Below, piece by piece: positions 14,679 to 53,539 of a DNA stretch of 64,000 nt. Under the pieces are notes generated by a model, which was not told the origin of the DNA, did no database searches, and was given only the letters and a program-made list of their open reading frames with translations. How positions within the stretch are numbered: position 1 is the first letter of the stretch; each line of letters begins with the position of its first letter. Source of the stretch: Ornithobacterium rhinotracheale DSM 15997. Its GTDB lineage: Bacteria > Bacteroidota > Bacteroidia > Flavobacteriales > Weeksellaceae. The stretch spans positions 997,501-1,061,500 of the forward strand of contig NC_018016.1 in assembly GCF_000265465.1 (NCBI RefSeq). Direction: 5' to 3'. The position numbers and the translations under genes were made by a program.

Positions 14679-16957
14679 TTATTGTTGTTTTAAGCAAAGG
14701 ATTTTGTAGTAGATCACGCCATCTACTTCGTCTCTTTCCACACCGTGAATGTCTTTTTCATAGCCTTTGAATCGGTTTTCAAAAGATTCTAGTGTTTTGA
14801 GATAGTGGTAGATTGCAATACTATCTTGATCAAGCAATTCGCCGCCCATCATCACAGGGATTCCTGGAGGATAAGGCACAATCATCACGGCAGGAATGCG
14901 GCCTATCATTTGGTCTAGATAGAGATATTCAGATTTGTTTTGAACCAAAAGTTCATATGCTTTGGCTGGTTCCATTTCTTGTTTTGGTAATTTTTCAAAA
15001 GCCATGTGCATGGTTTCTAGGAAATTAGTTTGTTTAAAGAAATGGTGCATTTCATTACATAAATCTTTTAGTCTCATATCTTGGTATCTCTTGTCGTAAT
15101 CTAGTAGATAAGGGAAAATGTCCTTAATAGGAATATTTCTTTCGTAGTCGTGTTTAAAGTTGAGTAGCTCGGCAAGCAATTCCCCTTGTTTTCCTTTTGT
15201 GGTACCGAATGAATGCAACATTAGGAATGAATAAGTGTCGGTTTTCTCGACCACGATTCCTTTTTGGATTAAATAATCGGTTACGATTCCAGCAGGGATT
15301 CCTTGCTCTTCGTAGGTGCCGTCCATTCTCACACCAGGAGTTACGAAGGTGAGCTTGATAGGATCTAGCATGATGAAGTCTTCTTCTATATCCTCAAACC
15401 CGTGCCAGTTGTATGTTTTATTTAATATCCAAGCGGATTGATGGTCTACTAAATCTCTAGGTTCTGCTTTTTCAAAATCTACATGAGTACCATTGATTTC
15501 TACTTTAGATGGTTGCCAAAGTCTAAAGAACCAATCTTGGTGTTCGGCATATTTTTTAAATATATTTTGGACTTTTTGTCTTAATTCCACAGCGGCCAAA
15601 ATATTATCCTCACTCATCTGCAATCCATCTTGAGACATCATCTGAGAGGCAACATCAAGCGATGCAATCATGGCGTAGTTTGGAGAAGTAGAGCCGTGCA
15701 TCATACTAGGCTTCGTTGAATTCATCTGGCAAAATGTGCGTAGATGAACCTTGTTTTATATGAATCATAGAGGCTTGAGAAAATGCGGTGAGTAATTTGT
15801 GGGTAGATTGCGAACAGAAAATAGGTGGATGGTAGCCTACACAATTTTCATCAGACATACCAAAGAAGCCTTTGTACACAGGGTGGAATTTAGCATAAGC
15901 ATACCAAGCTTCGTCAAAATGTAGATTTTCTACATGGTCTTCCAATTGATTTTTAATTTTGGTCACATTGTAGCAAATTCCATCGTAAGTGGAATTGGTA
16001 AGTGCCGACATTTTGTAGGTAGTTCTGTCGTCTCCTTCCTCGATTAAATCACTATTTTTAATCTTTTCGAGCCCAGATTCTTTCGAAAATTCAGAAAGTC
16101 TCACAGGTCCTATGATTCCTAGCGCATTTCTTCTAGGCTTCATATACACAGGAATGGCTCCTGTAATCACCATGGCATAGTTAAGCGATTTGTGGCAGTT
16201 TCTATCTACCAAAGCTAGGTCTGAATGCGTAACTCGCCCGTGCCAAATGATTTGATTAGCCGTTGAGGTTCCGTTTAGTACATAATAAGTTAAATCAGAG
16301 CCAAATGTTTTTTCGGCAAGTTTTTCAGATTCGTTTACCACACCGCTATGGTCTAGCAAGGATCCCAGTTCTGGTACCGAAATCGAAAGATCGGAACGCA
16401 TTACATTTTCTCCGAAAAATTCATAAAAAGCCACACCAGCAGGACTTTTCAAGAAACCTTCGCCCCCCCATATGCCCAGGAGTGTGCCATGCATATTTGT
16501 AGGTTTCTACATATTTTTTCAGTGCTCTGAAAAAAGGAGGATATATACCATCAATATAAGCATTGATCTCATGGCTTATGCGCCCTGCCATAAAGTTGAT
16601 AGTGTCGTCATCAAGCCAATAGTAGCCTGTTACAGAACCTAATAATTCGTAAGAAAGCTCTTCGGCTGATACTCTTTCTGCAATGATAAAAATAGGAAGA
16701 TTAGAAAATTTCTTTCTCAGACTTTCTAAAACTCTTTCTTTAGCTTGTTGCTCTTCCTCTAAACGCCAATCAATAATTACGCCCACGATTTCTCTTTGCG
16801 TGGTACATCTACTTTCTAGACTCTCTAGGGAGTAAAGTTCAAAAATTTCAAATCCCGACTCGGCGATACGGTAGGTAAGGTCTTTTAGTCGAGAGGCTTC
16901 GTAGTCAAGTTCCTGCTCTGAGGCTAGAACTAGAACTTTCCATGTTTTTTTAGACAT
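14679..16957 (-). pseudogene. Biodegradative arginine/lysine/ornithine decarboxylase, two frameshifts
   Basis: Three overlapping minus-strand frames together make one fold-III PLP decarboxylase of about 759 codons, the size of AdiA-type enzymes. Frame 1 (16957 to about 16465) holds the response-regulator-like wing domain and YAWHTPGHMGG. Frame 2 (about 16465-15706) continues GEGFLKSPAG and contains the PLP lysine in SQSTHKLL. Frame 3 (about 15708-14679) continues MMHGSTSPNYAM to the C-terminus. The first break is in a run of seven C (plus strand 16463-16469); one fewer restores MGGEGF. The second is at 15706-15708, where one extra base makes TAG instead of Tyr. Both are +1. Real decay, slipped-strand switching of the G7 tract, or sequencing error are all possible. 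Arg, Lys or Orn specificity was not resolved. Confidence 0.88.
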
Positions 16958-47837: not shown

Positions 47838-48176
47838 TATATACCTTATAATATAGTTTGTCTATTTGCTTGTGCAAATGCTTCTTTCCTTTATTTAAAA
47901 ACCAAAAATATTGTTGCTAGTTTGTTGCTAGCTATACTATATTGTATAAAGAGAATAAAGCCAAAGTTCCGTTTAGGAGCATTGGCTTTATGTTTATCTA
48001 AAAATAAATGTTTTTGCAGTGCCCTACACTGTAAAATACTTTTTTTCATATACTCTCGTGGAACGCGCTTCCTAGTAGAATGTTTTTTTTCATACTTAAT
48101 TTTTCTAGCGAAACCGTTAGGAAAGTTGTTATGTAGAGTTCGCTATGAGAATAGCCGACAATCGTTTTTAAGTTTT

Positions 48177-48220
48177 AGCCTTGCTGTGGTATGCCCCTAA
48201 TGCCATGGTAAGGCTTTTTT
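48177..48220 (+). terminator. Terminator ending leader RNA, copy 2
   Basis: AGCCTTGCTGTGG pairs with CCATGGTAAGGCT and is followed by six T, matching 33878-33923. Confidence 0.75.
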
Positions 48221-48275
48221 GTTGAAAGTAGCACAGCTTTACAGCTGTAAAAAATATATAAAAGAGAAGTTCTTT

Positions 48276-48610
48276 GGGATTTTGTATAGTGCTAGTGTTT
48301 TCTTTCTTGTTCTTTTGGCTTGACCCAAAGTCTTGCGAAGACTTGGAGCAAGAGTATGTGAAACGAAAAAGTCAAGAGCGAAGGCAGCGGTTTGCCTAAC
48401 GGCACGGGGTTCGCCTCCGCTATTTGAAAGCTTAGGCTTTCAAGTTCGCTATGGAGGCTCTCCCTAAACCTGCCTTCACTCACCCTGCGTGCGCAAAGGT
48501 TCACCCGCTCAAACAAAGCGAAGCGTTAATGAGCAGGTGCATGGGCGGAGTTAATTCTCCTCTCACATAGTTGAATTAGCCCTGCAAAAGGAAACACTAT
48601 ACAAAATCCC
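48276..48610. mobile_element. 335-bp inverted-repeat element (MITE-like)
   Basis: GGGATTTTGTATAGTG at 48276-48291 and its exact complement at 48595-48610 flank a GC-richer segment. The arms continue inward imperfectly (AGTGTTTTCTTT against AAAGGAAACACT) after a 6-nt bulge. Inside is a strong hairpin (GCCTCC...TTGAAAGC-TTAG-GCTTTCAA...GGAGGC). No transposase gene and no clear target duplication were seen. It lies between leader copy 2 and surface gene 3. Part of the segment resembles 37440-37520. Confidence 0.5.
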
Positions 48611-48674
48611 GTGTGATATAAAGAAAAATAAAAAGTAATAAATCATAAAGTTTAATTTTAAAAAAGTAAAAAAG

Positions 48675-50486
48675 ATGAAGAAAAGATTTTATCTTCTAGG
48701 AATGTTGCTGGCAGGCGGTGTAGCCCTTGCGCAGCAAGATGCAGAGGGGCGCGTTGGTATCAATACCGATGCACCAGAGGCGAGTTTAGACATTTCCCGA
48801 AATGAGGAATTGTTGAGAAAGAATAGCACACAGCCCCAAGGGGTATCGTTCCCCAATTTTAGTACGGAACAGCGTGCTAAGTTTGAAAACCCTAAGGTGG
48901 GTACAATGATTTTTAATACTACTAAACAATGTTTAGAGATGTATTTTGGGTTGAAAGGTGGTCGAGCCCATTGGGATTGTATTCCGAATGCGACGAGTGC
49001 ACAGTCCCAAAATGTGGCGATAGTGCCAGCGGGCTTTGAAGGGACTTATATCGCAGGTATCCCCTTTTCTGGAGGCAATAAAGTAAAGTTTGAGTTGCAA
49101 AACAATGGTTTTTCTCCCATTAGCAATGTGAATTTTGCCAGTGCTGTGAGCTTGCAGAACGGCGGCGCCAGCATTGGTATCAAAGGCGGAGAAAATAAAA
49201 GTATCAGCCTACAAGCAGGGAGCAAAACCACGCTAAGCTACACCCTTACAGGCACCCCAGAAGAGGGTGTGCTGATGGCAAACTTTAATCATTTAGGATT
49301 GACGGCAGACCAGCAAGCCCAAGTAGGTTTAGGTTCTGCAAGTGTTGCGAACAAAGACAATTACACGGTATCTTTGTATTACCAGCCTACCAATACCGTT
49401 GTTCCAGGGAAAATAAACAACGGAGCAGAAAAAGTAACGATAAAAATCCCATATACCAATGGGAAAGGCTCGTATAATGCTGTAAACATTAATAACATAA
49501 GAACCGCACCAGGGCAAGGTGGCGATGTAAACGATTTAAGCCTTTCTATCCCTGCGGGTAATTTTGGAGTGCAAGGCGAGCTTACCGCCACGATAAATGT
49601 AGACGGCGACGGCGAGTATTTAGTAAAGCAAATGGCACCTGGCGAGCAATATACCATTGCTACCTTCCCTATTGATATGAATGGTACACGTTACGATGTT
49701 GTATTAAAAGGTATAGGTGGTATCCCAGACCGATGCTTTGGCAAAACGACATTTGACTGTGTAGGCTATGGCGCGAAAGTAAAAGAGCATGAATTTATCT
49801 ATGTGCCAATAGAAGGACCAGACGGCAGAACATGGCTTAACAACAACTTAGGGGCAGAGTATGCGAGAGTGGGTTCTCCGTATTTTAACCCAGTTCAGCA
49901 AGCCACCAGCAAAACGGACTGGAAGGCTTATGGTTCTCTTTTCCAGTGGCAGCGTAATCCAGATGGTCATGAGTTGATAAATTGGTCAAGCTCAACCAGT
50001 GGTACGCCGAAATACACTGGTACAGGTTCTATCTCTACTTGGTGGACTAATGCAGGGACTAATATGTTTATCAGATATAATGATCCGCCTTATTCATGGG
50101 TTAATTCTTCGTTAAATTCAAATTCATCTAAGTGGAATTTATGGAAGCCTAAGGGTTCCACCAACCCGTGTCCGTCTGGTTATCATGTTCCTACGCATAA
50201 AGAGCAGGTGGCGTTGCATGATGTGATTACAGGTAAGTCTAACGACGTGAATGTGATATGGAATTCTGAGATGTGGGACGAATTCGGATTACGTCTTCCT
50301 GCGGCCGGTTCACGATATAACAACTTTGGCGCTATCGAAGAAACGAGTACCCTCGGTGATTACTGGAGCAGTGACGGTAGAAAGGACCTTGGTGTATGGA
50401 GCATATACTTTAAAAGGAACATGAGCTTTGCGGGGAACAGTGGTGATCGGGCGCATGGTCATAGCGTTCGCTGCATCAAGGATTAA
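48675..50486 (+). CDS. Secreted surface protein 3: shared stalk with FISUMP domain
   Basis: A 603-aa paralogue of the genes at 33988 and 35622. A signal peptide (MLLAGGVALA) is followed by GRVGINTDAPEASLDI, KVGTMIFNTTKQCLEMYFGL, the shared middle (AGFEGTYIAGIP, IPYTNGKGSYNAVNI) and a C-terminal FISUMP domain: WLNNNLGAEYA, CPSGYHVPTHKEQ, LRLPAAGSRYNN, LGDYWSS, HGHSVRCIKD. The last 65 codons (50289-50483) are richer in G+C and resemble variable regions of retroelement-diversified lectin-fold proteins. A reverse transcriptase lies 510 bp downstream. The conserved GCCTGCAAAG-type terminator follows. Confidence 0.82.
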   Translation: MKKRFYLLGMLLAGGVALAQQDAEGRVGINTDAPEASLDISRNEELLRKNSTQPQGVSFPNFSTEQRAKFENPKVGTMIFNTTKQCLEMYFGLKGGRAHWDCIPNATSAQSQNVAIVPAGFEGTYIAGIPFSGGNKVKFELQNNGFSPISNVNFASAVSLQNGGASIGIKGGENKSISLQAGSKTTLSYTLTGTPEEGVLMANFNHLGLTADQQAQVGLGSASVANKDNYTVSLYYQPTNTVVPGKINNGAEKVTIKIPYTNGKGSYNAVNINNIRTAPGQGGDVNDLSLSIPAGNFGVQGELTATINVDGDGEYLVKQMAPGEQYTIATFPIDMNGTRYDVVLKGIGGIPDRCFGKTTFDCVGYGAKVKEHEFIYVPIEGPDGRTWLNNNLGAEYARVGSPYFNPVQQATSKTDWKAYGSLFQWQRNPDGHELINWSSSTSGTPKYTGTGSISTWWTNAGTNMFIRYNDPPYSWVNSSLNSNSSKWNLWKPKGSTNPCPSGYHVPTHKEQVALHDVITGKSNDVNVIWNSEMWDEFGLRLPAAGSRYNNFGAIEETSTLGDYWSSDGRKDLGVWSIYFKRNMSFAGNSGDRAHGHSVRCIKD

Positions 50487-50637
50487 GCGTGCGTTCACAG
50501 CGGTTTGCCGCCAGCCCGCTTAAGCTTGTAAGTAAAAAACAGGCGGGTAAGGCTAAGTATGGCGGTAACCCTATAGGGTAACATAATGTAACCCTATGGG
50601 TTCGCTAAAAAAGGTACAAACTAACCACCATACCCCC

Positions 50638-50680
50638 AAAAGCCTGCAAAGGCTTATCTATAAAGACTTTGTAGGCTTTT
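50638..50680 (+). terminator. Terminator after surface protein 3
   Basis: AAAAGCCTGCAAAG pairs with CTTTGTAGGCTTTT, conserved with the other two surface genes. Confidence 0.8.
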
Positions 50681-50702
50681 ATAATTAATAAAATAAACTA
50701 AC

Positions 50703-50959
50703 TAACCCGTAGTGCATTATAAAAAAGGTTGCTCATGTGACGGAAGAATAGTGAATTTTACTGGTTTTCAATTAAATAAAATTACAAGCCGCCTAGGGAC
50801 AAGTTGCAATTTTATTTTTATCTAAAATTGAAAGGCGCGTTTGCAGCGAAGAAAACGAAAATTTTTCCTTTCTTTGGGAATATTGGCGAAAATGATCTTC
50901 CTGATTATCATTCAATATCACAATAAATTAATCTCATTTGGATAATGCACTACGGGTTA
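50703..50959. mobile_element. 257-bp inverted-repeat element upstream of the reverse transcriptase
   Basis: TAACCCGTAGTGCATTAT at 50703-50720 and its perfect complement at 50942-50959 bound the element. AACT occurs directly outside both 17-bp inner arms (50700-50703 and 50959-50962), as a 4-bp target duplication would. Inside, AAATAAAATTACAA and TTGCAATTTTATTT form a near-perfect hairpin. No coding frame. It may be a MITE. It ends 37 bp before the reverse transcriptase start, where retron-type RNAs also lie. Confidence 0.6.
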
Positions 50960-50996
50960 ACTAATATTTTAAAAATAGTAAAAAAACTAAGACATT

Positions 50997-52139
50997 ATGC
51001 CTAAAATCTTCCGCAAACCCGCTCCCTATATGGTGTTGCCCCACGGAGATCCTATAAAAGAGGGCGGAGGGGTACTTCGCCAATATTTTGCAAAACTCAT
51101 GGCAAAAAGGCTTCCTACAGTGTGCTATCAAGGCTTTAAGCATGGGGATATTCCGCATTATATACAGCAACATAAGAAACAATACCCTTATTTCTTAAAA
51201 GTAGATATTGCAAAGTTTTATCCTTCGCTATCCCATCACCATCTTATGGTGGAAGCTCAACTAGCTTATAAAAATCTGATAGGATTAAGTTATGTTCCTA
51301 AGAATTTTAAAACGGCAGTTTTACCTTTGTTACATCATTTTTTTCAGACTTTGCCCACAGAGGCTTATGGGCTTCCACTGAATAGTGGAATGGCAAAAGC
51401 ACTGGCTCCACTCATTTATGTGAATTACTTATTGCCACTTAAGAAGCAATCTCAGTGTAAGTTTATAGCCTATGCAGATGATTTGGTGTTTTTATGTATG
51501 AGTAGGGAGAAGTGTGAGGAAATTTACAACTCTTTCATTAATTATTTATACCATATGGAATTGCGTATTAATGTAGAAAAAGTACAGCAAGGCAGATTTT
51601 CAAAAGACACCTTAGATTTCTGTGGCTATCGCTTTTCGGGCGGTTATGTGTCTATTTCCCCATGGAAGATAGAAGATTTTAAAAATAAGATAAAAGAACA
51701 GAGTCAGAAGTTTTTAAGGACGAAGAAAAAATGGGAAGAACGCTCGTTTATAAAAAGTCTAAATGCAAAAGTGAATGGGTTTGGACACTATTATAAATAT
51801 GCCAATGTACATAGTTTATTTGAGCGATTAGATGCCTTTATTCGGCAGAATATTCGTAAAACCTACAAAAGTTTAGGATTGGCAATGCCTACCCTATCAA
51901 CAATGCGAAAGTTAGGCTTAAGAAGTTTAGTAGACATTTTTAGAGGAGAGAAACAAGGCTTAATAAGCAAGCCAAAGTACCAAGACTATAAAGAAACACA
52001 ACGACATACAAGTAAACAGAGTATGAGTTTGCTTGTTACTTATATAGAAAAACTGATACACCAACAAAGTGAAATAATCGCTCAGCTAAAAAGTGTGAAT
52101 AAACAACAGCAAGAGATGATAAACTTACTGAGTATATAA
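50997..52139 (+). CDS. Reverse transcriptase, unclassified group
   Basis: A 380-aa RNA-directed DNA polymerase. The catalytic motifs are FLKVDIAKFYPSLSHHHLM (Asp about 70) and FIAYADDLVFL (YADD 159-162), then the thumb-side LRINVEKVQQG and LDFCGYRFSGG. The motif between them is GLPLNSGMAKALAPL (125-139), not the SQ form of diversity-generating retroelements nor the usual group II intron QGxxxSP. A maturase-like FGHYYKYANVHSLFERLDAFI block (about 260-282) and a C-terminal coiled coil (QQSEIIAQLKSVNKQQQEMI) follow. It lies between surface protein 3 and an HU-HIG gene. Function unknown. Confidence 0.85.
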   Translation: MPKIFRKPAPYMVLPHGDPIKEGGGVLRQYFAKLMAKRLPTVCYQGFKHGDIPHYIQQHKKQYPYFLKVDIAKFYPSLSHHHLMVEAQLAYKNLIGLSYVPKNFKTAVLPLLHHFFQTLPTEAYGLPLNSGMAKALAPLIYVNYLLPLKKQSQCKFIAYADDLVFLCMSREKCEEIYNSFINYLYHMELRINVEKVQQGRFSKDTLDFCGYRFSGGYVSISPWKIEDFKNKIKEQSQKFLRTKKKWEERSFIKSLNAKVNGFGHYYKYANVHSLFERLDAFIRQNIRKTYKSLGLAMPTLSTMRKLGLRSLVDIFRGEKQGLISKPKYQDYKETQRHTSKQSMSLLVTYIEKLIHQQSEIIAQLKSVNKQQQEMINLLSI

Positions 52140-52290
52140 GTTCACTGCTCAAAGACGCACGCACAAACGAAGTGGCGATGTGTTGTCACCTTGAACATGT
52201 TTAGCTCCGCTGAATCTTTGATTTCAGGGTCTCACGCAGAGAGCCTTAAGTAATATAAACAAACAATTATAAATAGAAAAAACAAAAAAA

Positions 52291-52659
52291 ATGAAATACA
52301 AATTAGTACAAAAAGCCAATCCGCAAGATAAGAGCAAAAAATGGTATGCCAATGCGGTAAATGCCGGCACCGTTAGCCAGCGTGCGGTAGCAAAAAACAT
52401 TGCCGAAAAATCCTCGCTCACAGTAGGAGATATTGCCAATGTAATCGAAAACTTATTAGAAGAAATGCCCAAAGAGCTCATCGAGGGCAAGAGTGTAAAG
52501 TTAGGCGATTTTGGTACTTTTCGCCTTTCGCTAAGCAGTGAGGGCGTAGGCAATGAGAAAGACTTTAATGCCACTAAAATCAAAGGTGCTAAAGTCATCT
52601 TTACCCCAGGGGTAGCGCTTAAAAAGGCGTTGAGCGACATTAAATATGAGCGAGAATAA
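52291..52659 (+). CDS. HU-HIG family DNA-binding protein
   Basis: A 122-aa histone-like protein of the Bacteroidota HU-related (HU_rel/HIG) type. It starts MKYKLVQKANPQDKSKKWYANAV, then the helical SLTVGDIANVIENLLEEMPKEL, the VKLGDFGTFRLSLSSEG beta-saddle and VIFTPGVALKKALSDIK. It probably bends or coats DNA. It is the intact paralogue of the truncated copy at 37534. It lies 151 bp after the reverse transcriptase; that gap has a short repeat-like stretch resembling common Bacteroidota intergenic repeats (about 52185-52245). Confidence 0.9.
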   Translation: MKYKLVQKANPQDKSKKWYANAVNAGTVSQRAVAKNIAEKSSLTVGDIANVIENLLEEMPKELIEGKSVKLGDFGTFRLSLSSEGVGNEKDFNATKIKGAKVIFTPGVALKKALSDIKYERE

Positions 52660-52687
52660 GCCGAAGTTTATTCATTATTTCATCTCC

Positions 52688-52717
52688 AAAACAGAGGCAC
52701 TAAAAGCCTCTGTTTTT
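52688..52717 (+). terminator. Terminator after HU-HIG gene
   Basis: AAAACAGAGGC...GCCTCTGTTTT followed by T. It matches the hairpin after the truncated copy. Confidence 0.8.
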
Positions 52718-52782
52718 TTATGTTTTTAGCCTAAAAAAAGCGCTGTTGTAATCCGCTGATAATAAGCGCCCTGCAAGGGCAT

Positions 52783-52861
52783 AAATTTCCGTGCGCATCC
52801 AGCAAAATTTCTGTGCGCATCGCGATAGATTTCTGTGCGCATGGAAACTCAGCGCGATGCG
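52783..52861. repeat. Short direct repeats and hairpin in the cassette 3' flank
   Basis: Three near-identical ATTTCTGTGCGCAT-type units are followed by CGCGATGCG, which pairs with CGCATCGCG at 52816-52824. The surrounding 52720-52975 has no gene. Its first part resembles the flank of the truncated HU gene, so the duplication extends beyond the HU genes. Confidence 0.6.
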
Positions 52862-52979
52862 TATTTGTGTGTCAAGTTCAGTGGGGGCTTTTTGCTAGTA
52901 ACCTTTGTGTCTCTTGGGGTATAAATGCTTTAGAGCTAGCTTTTTGTTCGTAGCTTGGAGGAATAAAAATTAAACATAA

Positions 52980-53011
52980 TTTGCTGAAAATAAAAACATT
53001 TTGTACCTTTG
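52980..53011 (+). promoter_or_regulatory. Promoter of the rimP-nusA-infB operon
   Basis: TTTG at 52980-52983, a 20-bp spacer and TACCTTTG at 53004-53011, about 67 bp before rimP. A hairpin-like leader (GAAGAGC...) follows. Confidence 0.75.
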
Positions 53012-53077
53012 CCCTGTTTTTAGGGAAGAAAATACCGAAGAGCATCTATTACAGAGGCTCTTTTTTTGTACTAAATT

Positions 53078-53539
53078 ATGAAAGAAAAAGTAGAAAAATT
53101 ACTCACCGAAGCCATTGCAGAAAATCCAGCTTTGTTTTTAGTAGACTGGAGCATAGACGCCCAAAACCAAATTCAAGTGTTGGTAGATGGTGATGAGGGA
53201 TTACCCATGGAAGAGGTGGTGCGCATAAGCCGCCATATAGAGCATAATTTGGATCGCGAGGCAGAAGATTTTGCGCTTATGGTGTCGTCGCCAGGGGTGG
53301 ACTATCCTTTGCAGAGCGAAAGACAATTCAAGAAAAATATAGGTAGATTACTCAAAGTGAAAACCGAAAGCCAAGGCGAAATCAAAGCACGCCTTGAAGA
53401 GGTGAACGAAGAGGGAATCACACTGACTTGGAAACAGCGCGAAAAGAAACCCGTGGGAAAAGGCAAGCACACGGTGGAAAAAGTAGAGAAAATCCCGTTT
53501 GGGGACATTAAAAAAGCAGTCGTACAAATAGAAATTTAA
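53078..53539 (+). CDS. rimP: Ribosome maturation factor RimP
   Basis: A 153-aa protein needed for 30S subunit maturation. The N-terminal domain contains LFLVDWSIDAQNQIQVLVDGDEG, EEVVRISRHIEHNLDRE and the family motif FALMVSSPGVDYPLQ. The C-terminal SH3-like domain (IGRLLKVKTESQG, IPFGDIKKAVVQIEI) follows. The position directly upstream of nusA is the conserved bacterial arrangement. Confidence 0.95.
   Translation: MKEKVEKLLTEAIAENPALFLVDWSIDAQNQIQVLVDGDEGLPMEEVVRISRHIEHNLDREAEDFALMVSSPGVDYPLQSERQFKKNIGRLLKVKTESQGEIKARLEEVNEEGITLTWKQREKKPVGKGKHTVEKVEKIPFGDIKKAVVQIEI

Follow-up and report, generated by a model that had tools for sequence, protein, structure and literature searches.

A FISUMP-type adhesin gene followed by a UG38-class reverse transcriptase in Ornithobacterium rhinotracheale: a possible diversifying module lacking a template repeat

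In the genome of O. rhinotracheale DSM 15997, a single contig of 2,399,175 bp, we analyzed a stretch of 64,000 nucleotides (contig positions 997501-1061500, hereafter the window; coordinates below are those of the window unless given in kb or as locus positions). In this window, a FISUMP-type surface-protein gene (48675-50486, + strand) is followed by the gene of a UG38-class reverse transcriptase (RT; 50997-52139, + strand). We tentatively propose that the two genes belong together as a module that might work like a diversity-generating retroelement (DGR) without a fixed template repeat, a reading that we consider quite possible but still short of probable. The flagged segment, which is the last 65 codons of the surface-protein gene, closes the FISUMP domain of a surface adhesin, and the adhesin gene and the UG38 RT behind it would form one unit that is DGR-like but not a DGR. 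We infer that the adjacent gene is what the RT acts on, which RNA is copied and that variation is produced at all. The copied RNA would already carry a FISUMP end, being either the mRNA of the gene itself or that of a paralog, so that a separate template repeat would be unnecessary, and recombination would bring the cDNA into the adhesin gene's 3' end.

The surface-protein gene and its C-terminal end

The gene at 48675-50486, delineated by its open reading frame (ORF) and by homology, encodes a protein of 603 aa whose N terminus looks signal-like by eye, and is one of about 13 paralogs in the genome with a FISUMP-type end. Its FISUMP (Fib_succ_major) domain covers residues 385-602 (49827-50480, + strand), where both profile matches lie below the curated cut-offs: TIGR02145 matched residues 384-603 with 40.3 bits (E 5e-10; cut-off 41.65), and PF09603 gave 27 bits (E 6.5e-6; cut-off 33.9). 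The paralog at locus L010 clears the FISUMP cut-off with 52.1 bits. Although its own two scores fall short, homology clearly places the gene in the FISUMP type.

The flagged segment (residues 539-603; 50289-50483, + strand) resembles a variable region by its motifs, and the genome holds no near-copy of it. The protein end quoted in the sequence-only reading of this DNA (...GLRLPAAGSRYNN...LGDYWSS...AHGHSVRCIKD) is indeed present in the ORF translation. That reading also compared the end with the lectin-fold variable regions of DGRs, and the comparison holds for the type of domain: Fib_succ_major is an established DGR target in the available portions of two reports (PMC4159848, PMC8934634), and a true DGR acts on paralogs of the gene in the same genome (see below). 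The reported excess of G+C is real but modest, the last 195 nt having 49.7% compared with 44.5% in the remainder of the gene, and 31 of the 538 windows of the same size within the gene reach 49.7%. On the other hand, adenine depletion had to be rejected as a signature. The segment contains 25.6% A and the remainder of the gene 30.1%, but this is not distinctive: the A content also drops in L016 (26.8 vs 36.5) and L020 (25.3 vs 32.9), which as far as seen are neither DGR targets nor adjacent to an RT, and rises in L009. The undistinctive base composition of the segment counts against the proposed module.

The neighboring reverse transcriptase

The RT ORF starts 510 nt past the adhesin stop codon, in agreement with the distance of about 0.5 kb given in the sequence-only reading, and ORF and profile matches assign to it 380 aa with an intact YADD motif and a GIIM thumb. 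Its best and nearly full-length match was the PADLOC UG38 model (PADLOC-DB PDLC03777; 160.3 bits, model positions 28-307 of 309), followed by the next family at 85.6. The UG38 model, for which no curated cut-off is shown, scored 161.5 and 184.0 bits with the RTs of a Polaribacter (L059) and a Symbiothrix (L060) locus, respectively, and 47.8 bits with an RT fragment of Labilibaculum (L061), all described below. In a tree of 12 RTs, whose references were five DGR and four group II RTs only, three UG38 proteins and the five DGR RTs each formed a group of their own (both 100/100), while the four group II RTs did not group together and one of them was placed nearest to UG38 (85/90). At the position where the DGR rows carry the LxIGxLxSQ-type motif, the window RT has GLPLNSGMAKALAP. 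No Avd-like ORF was seen beside it in the ORF list, in which the sense ORFs of at least 60 aa between the adhesin stop codon and 53 kb are the RT, an HU-HIG gene and a 70-aa ORF at 52981 that overlaps the next gene. The adjacent RT can therefore not be regarded as a DGR enzyme: it is of the UG38 class, falls outside the DGR clade and lacks both the SQ motif and Avd. It should be noted that the missing Avd is not decisive in this respect, because only 62% of DGR RTs have one according to the available part of PMC8934634.

A group II intron was rejected as another candidate. The RT shares the GIIM thumb with group II intron RTs/maturases, and group II RTs are its nearest relatives by sequence among solved structures; it differs from them in scoring 84.3 bits with TIGR04416, far below the cut-off of 300, and in forming a separate group in the tree. 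Moreover, an Rfam search of 48000-53500 (E<=1) returned a single match (E 0.73, below the gathering score) and no intron family around the ORF.

The interval between the two genes (50487-50996) folds unusually well (z -5.57). An intergenic noncoding RNA was rejected, as the long stem consists of the two terminal repeats of an insertion-sequence remnant and the second hairpin is terminator-like and common to the stretches behind three paralogs. The remnant (50703-50959, no strand given) is an internally deleted IS982-family element with 18-nt terminal inverted repeats and eight longer copies in the genome, one of which (L040) was found to contain the IS982 transposase. The terminator-like hairpin (50640-50683, + strand) has similar counterparts about 0.5 kb behind the paralogs L011, L012 and L022. 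The position of the IS982 remnant between gene and RT weakens the proposal that they form a module.

Search for a template of the flagged segment

The absence of a template repeat from the window, as stated in the sequence-only reading, was borne out by a repeat search of 48500-53000 and by an adenine-tolerant scan that covered the window together with eight paralog regions; the best match of the latter falls within a paralog gene, where it aligns to sequence preceding the flagged segment. Of the two options given in that reading, a distant template and another mechanism, the first did not survive, and the second would be compatible with the recurrence of the gene pair in other genera (see below). 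Genome-wide DNA searches with the segment found no near-copy: the segment itself was the only match at E<=0.001, and at E<=10 it was joined by just five matches, each 16-23 nt long. Phages, plasmids and three same-genus genomes yielded no template either, and no scanned locus was template-like; on these grounds a distant template was rejected.

We also used a joined query of adhesin ends to search six genomes. In the three same-genus genomes, the best E values ranged from 0.031 to 2.6, and two weak matches in one of them (G300) fall in FISUMP genes (L092 and L097), the latter with a DGR-like end of its own. The Polaribacter end matched itself, followed by an E value of 0.014 for 28 nt of the flagged segment in an unrelated ORF, and the Labilibaculum end likewise matched itself, followed by 19 nt in an unrelated ORF (E 0.127); no template was found in these two draft genomes. 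In the part of the loci inspected, other weak matches in Polaribacter (L096 and L102) and Labilibaculum (L098, L105, L110 and L115) also fall in unrelated ORFs. Viral contigs yielded one 19-nt match, within a phage ORF unrelated to FISUMP, and no match to a second search pattern; the FISUMP domain as a query had no match in the viral scan. The lack of a template in one complete and two draft genomes favors a DGR-like module, which is also helped slightly by the fact that the weak matches inspected look unlike templates. A missing template alone does not point to UG38, however, because L011, L012 and L022 lack both a template and a UG38-class RT.

The paralog family and a resident canonical DGR

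A genome protein search with the adhesin gave 31 matches. By script extraction, 30 loci were reduced to 19 having an ORF that matches at E<=1e-5, and FISUMP-type ends were present in 12 of these 19 loci, or in 13 loci when L021, which had been merged in this step with its near copy L020, is counted as well. The N-terminal parts of the paralogs are close but mosaic. When gaps are counted as differences, 120-nt blocks of the flagged gene are 56-100% identical to L009 up to nt 1200, and identity drops to 0-37% over the last 480 nt. The pair L020 (~625 kb) and L021 (~1433 kb) consists of near-identical FISUMP loci in opposite orientation, with 56 mismatches in 3561 ungapped positions. In addition, ORF starts in L029, L033 and L072 (10115-10585) translate into THTHTH runs, implying CA/AC dinucleotide tracts close to members of the family; such tracts are used in phase variation.

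A canonical DGR was identified by searches and alignments at 568.4-573.3 kb (L072 4365-9293), about 476 kb from the flagged gene, with an RT, Avd, a template repeat and a local FISUMP target. Most differences among the ends of L010, L013, L014 and L018 fall on the first and second positions of AAY codons, and a genome search with the L010 end detected an extra copy outside these genes (570969-571155, - strand), AAC-rich and template-like. Of the two RVT_1 matches that the genome contains, this copy adjoins the second. Compared with this template, changes were found at 15/56 adenines and 0/131 other bases in L010, 16/56 and 3/131 in L014, 22/56 and 2/131 in L013, and 20/54 and 9/127 in L018; summed over the four targets, 73 of 222 template adenines but only 14 of 520 other bases were changed. 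The RT of this locus carries the motifs GLPIGSLTSQ and YVDD, and it is followed by an ORF of 109 aa with similarity to Avd (NF033474, E 2.3e-9, 37.5 bits, cut-off 80; bAvd, E 8.6e-5). Thus, the 569-571 kb locus is a genuine, intact-looking DGR that has one local and three remote adhesin targets. From the coordinates, the remote targets L013 and L018 are ~0.32 and ~0.92 Mb away from its RT, and L014 is ~0.95 Mb away if the contig is circular. Remote DGR targets are known, the maximum in the available part of a 2012 survey being >370 kb (PMC3521204). The search with the L010 end matched the four targets and the template, and the flagged gene was not among the matches. Since neither this search nor that with the flagged segment links the two, the resident template does not explain the segment, which, judged by sequence comparison, is not derived from it.

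A second group of DGR-like adhesin ends is formed by L011 (~297.5 kb), L012 (~1275.3 kb) and L022 (~1818.4 kb), the gene of the last being split across two reading frames. In these ends, A is present in 30 of 36 variable columns, compared with 15 of 25 upstream; no template for them was found in the genome, and no RT of the UG38 class lies alongside. DGR-like ends without a resident template therefore occur twice in the genome, and this is the main support for the alternative in which the flagged segment represents a DGR variable region that was frozen or recombined, either because its template has since been lost or because the C-terminal end has been swapped between paralogs, and in which the UG38 RT is uninvolved. 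We consider this alternative somewhat doubtful, although it has a substantial chance of being correct. It agrees with the layout of the segment, which equals that of the four DGR-served paralogs, and with the mosaic structure and abrupt loss of identity seen in the comparison with L009, and it gains slightly from the DGR-like FISUMP ends in G300 (L097) and in Symbiothrix (L091, L095 and L101). However, it leaves unexplained why FISUMP-like genes lie upstream of UG38 RTs in other genera, and a matching template was absent from phages, plasmids and the three same-genus genomes.

UG38 loci in other genomes

A species-genome scan with the window RT, restricted to close relatives by its use of short exact peptides, gave three loci, in Polaribacter (L059), Symbiothrix (L060) and Labilibaculum (L061). 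The Polaribacter RT is 46% identical to the window RT and has a FISUMP-like gene directly upstream on the same strand, with a gap of 188 nt. The product of this gene matches the 603-aa adhesin (24.6% over 504 columns, E 1e-20) and ends with CPDGFHVP...GWGQPIRCINNQ, but reaches no FISUMP model. The Labilibaculum RT is broken: only its C-terminal part remains, and this is joined to an N-terminal stretch with similarity to the Polaribacter adhesin (31% over 103 aa, E 7e-12). The gene preceding the RT piece shows a weak likeness to FISUMP at its end (E 9e-5 among 21 proteins compared). No FISUMP gene adjoins the UG38 RT of Symbiothrix. The three FISUMP genes with DGR-like ends named above lie elsewhere in this genome (G987), and over 75 nt L091 shares 80% identity with the Ornithobacterium template.

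A FISUMP-like gene thus appears upstream of a UG38 RT in three genera, once as remains. As there are only about 13 FISUMP-type genes in the genome, chance adjacency in more than one genus would be unlikely, and the pairing with an exported adhesin seems to fit a diversifier better than a defense RT. Several facts weaken the proposed adhesin-RT module: it draws on four loci only, with no FISUMP neighbor in Symbiothrix and a broken RT in Labilibaculum; no FISUMP model recognizes the Polaribacter protein; and PADLOC places UG38 among defense RTs. The listing of UG38 as DRT in PADLOC is also one of the grounds for another alternative, in which the UG38 RT is of a defense type or otherwise independent, resides in an island of surface genes and has the adhesin merely co-inherited with it. 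Such independence would be in line with the RT of Symbiothrix occurring without the adhesin, with the next gene (TlpA-like by reading, 33%) being shared by Polaribacter and Labilibaculum as well, and with the patchy distribution of the window RT. This RT was not found in any other genome of three overlapping sets, which comprised 320 family members (E<=1e-30), 395 order members (E<=1e-25) and 395 phylum members (E<=1e-20) and included three same-genus species. One run of the viral scan gave no match and another gave 22 weak RT matches (23-31%); phages and plasmids contained none at 1e-15, and at 1e-3 there were 267 plasmid records, with most of the 25 matches listed being annotated as group II RTs. 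On the other hand, linkage to an exported adhesin in the same order and on the same strand is unexpected for a defense RT, and no other defense gene was noticed alongside in the ORF list. We regard an independent RT as unlikely. Finally, that the resident DGR serves the flagged gene in trans is highly improbable, for although it reaches three targets at distances of 0.3 to 0.95 Mb, the genome searches with the flagged segment miss its template and the L010-end search misses the flagged gene, which together refute such service for sequences in the genome.

Comparison with known systems

The locus resembles DGRs with a Fib_succ_major target in its C-terminal FISUMP domain, in the RT lying directly behind the target and in having paralogs that are served by a real DGR; it differs in that its RT belongs to another clade, that the genome contains no template repeat for it and that no Avd is found alongside. 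With regard to the UG38 RTs, the likeness lies in the enzyme, and the difference is that PADLOC-DB files this class under DRT. Another non-DGR class tied to surface-structure genes is UG4, 66% of whose RTs are linked to fimbrial genes in the available part of PMC8934634, although both the RT class and the surface family differ from those of the window. The pairing of UG38 with a FISUMP-like adhesin was not present in the literature searched; a survey of UG/Abi RTs (doi 10.1093/nar/gkac467), which lies outside that search, may describe UG38 neighborhoods. A term search for UG38 reverse transcriptase returned no relevant paper, and a search combining Ornithobacterium rhinotracheale with diversity-generating returned none.

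In the related species O. hominis, up to 17 such genes per genome have been described, with a variable set and variability from sample to sample (PMC6421346), and a later count gives at least 20 per genome (PMC13183296), as far as the available text of each goes. The same portions of the two papers mention a putative phase-variation mechanism for these genes. The terms reverse transcriptase and retroelement are absent from the accessible text of both and from that of a study of 94 O. rhinotracheale isolates (PMC12366310). The resident DGR, with one local and three remote targets, offers a concrete candidate mechanism for the gene variability described in the available part of PMC6421346. If the UG38-adhesin pair does diversify its target, the work of a DGR would be carried out without a template repeat, and the UG38 RT class would acquire a role. 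The broader view that UG38 RTs are a second, independent lineage of adhesin-diversifying retroelements, with no dedicated template, copying transcripts of the adhesin or of a paralog, and here beside a conventional DGR serving other members of the same family, is rather unlikely at present.

Other genes near the family and in the window

A gene for an HU-HIG DNA-binding protein (52291-52659, + strand) sits behind the RT in the window and is a frequent companion of the paralog family. A gene of this type follows the surface-protein gene within ~0.7 kb in 11 of the 19 paralog loci (L009, L011, L013, L014, L015, L018, L019, L022, L029, L033 and L037), and one is also located behind the RT of the resident DGR (L072 4365-4754). 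Elsewhere in the window, three overlapping ORFs in different frames (14679-16957, - strand) look like one broken gene, presumably for a decarboxylase.
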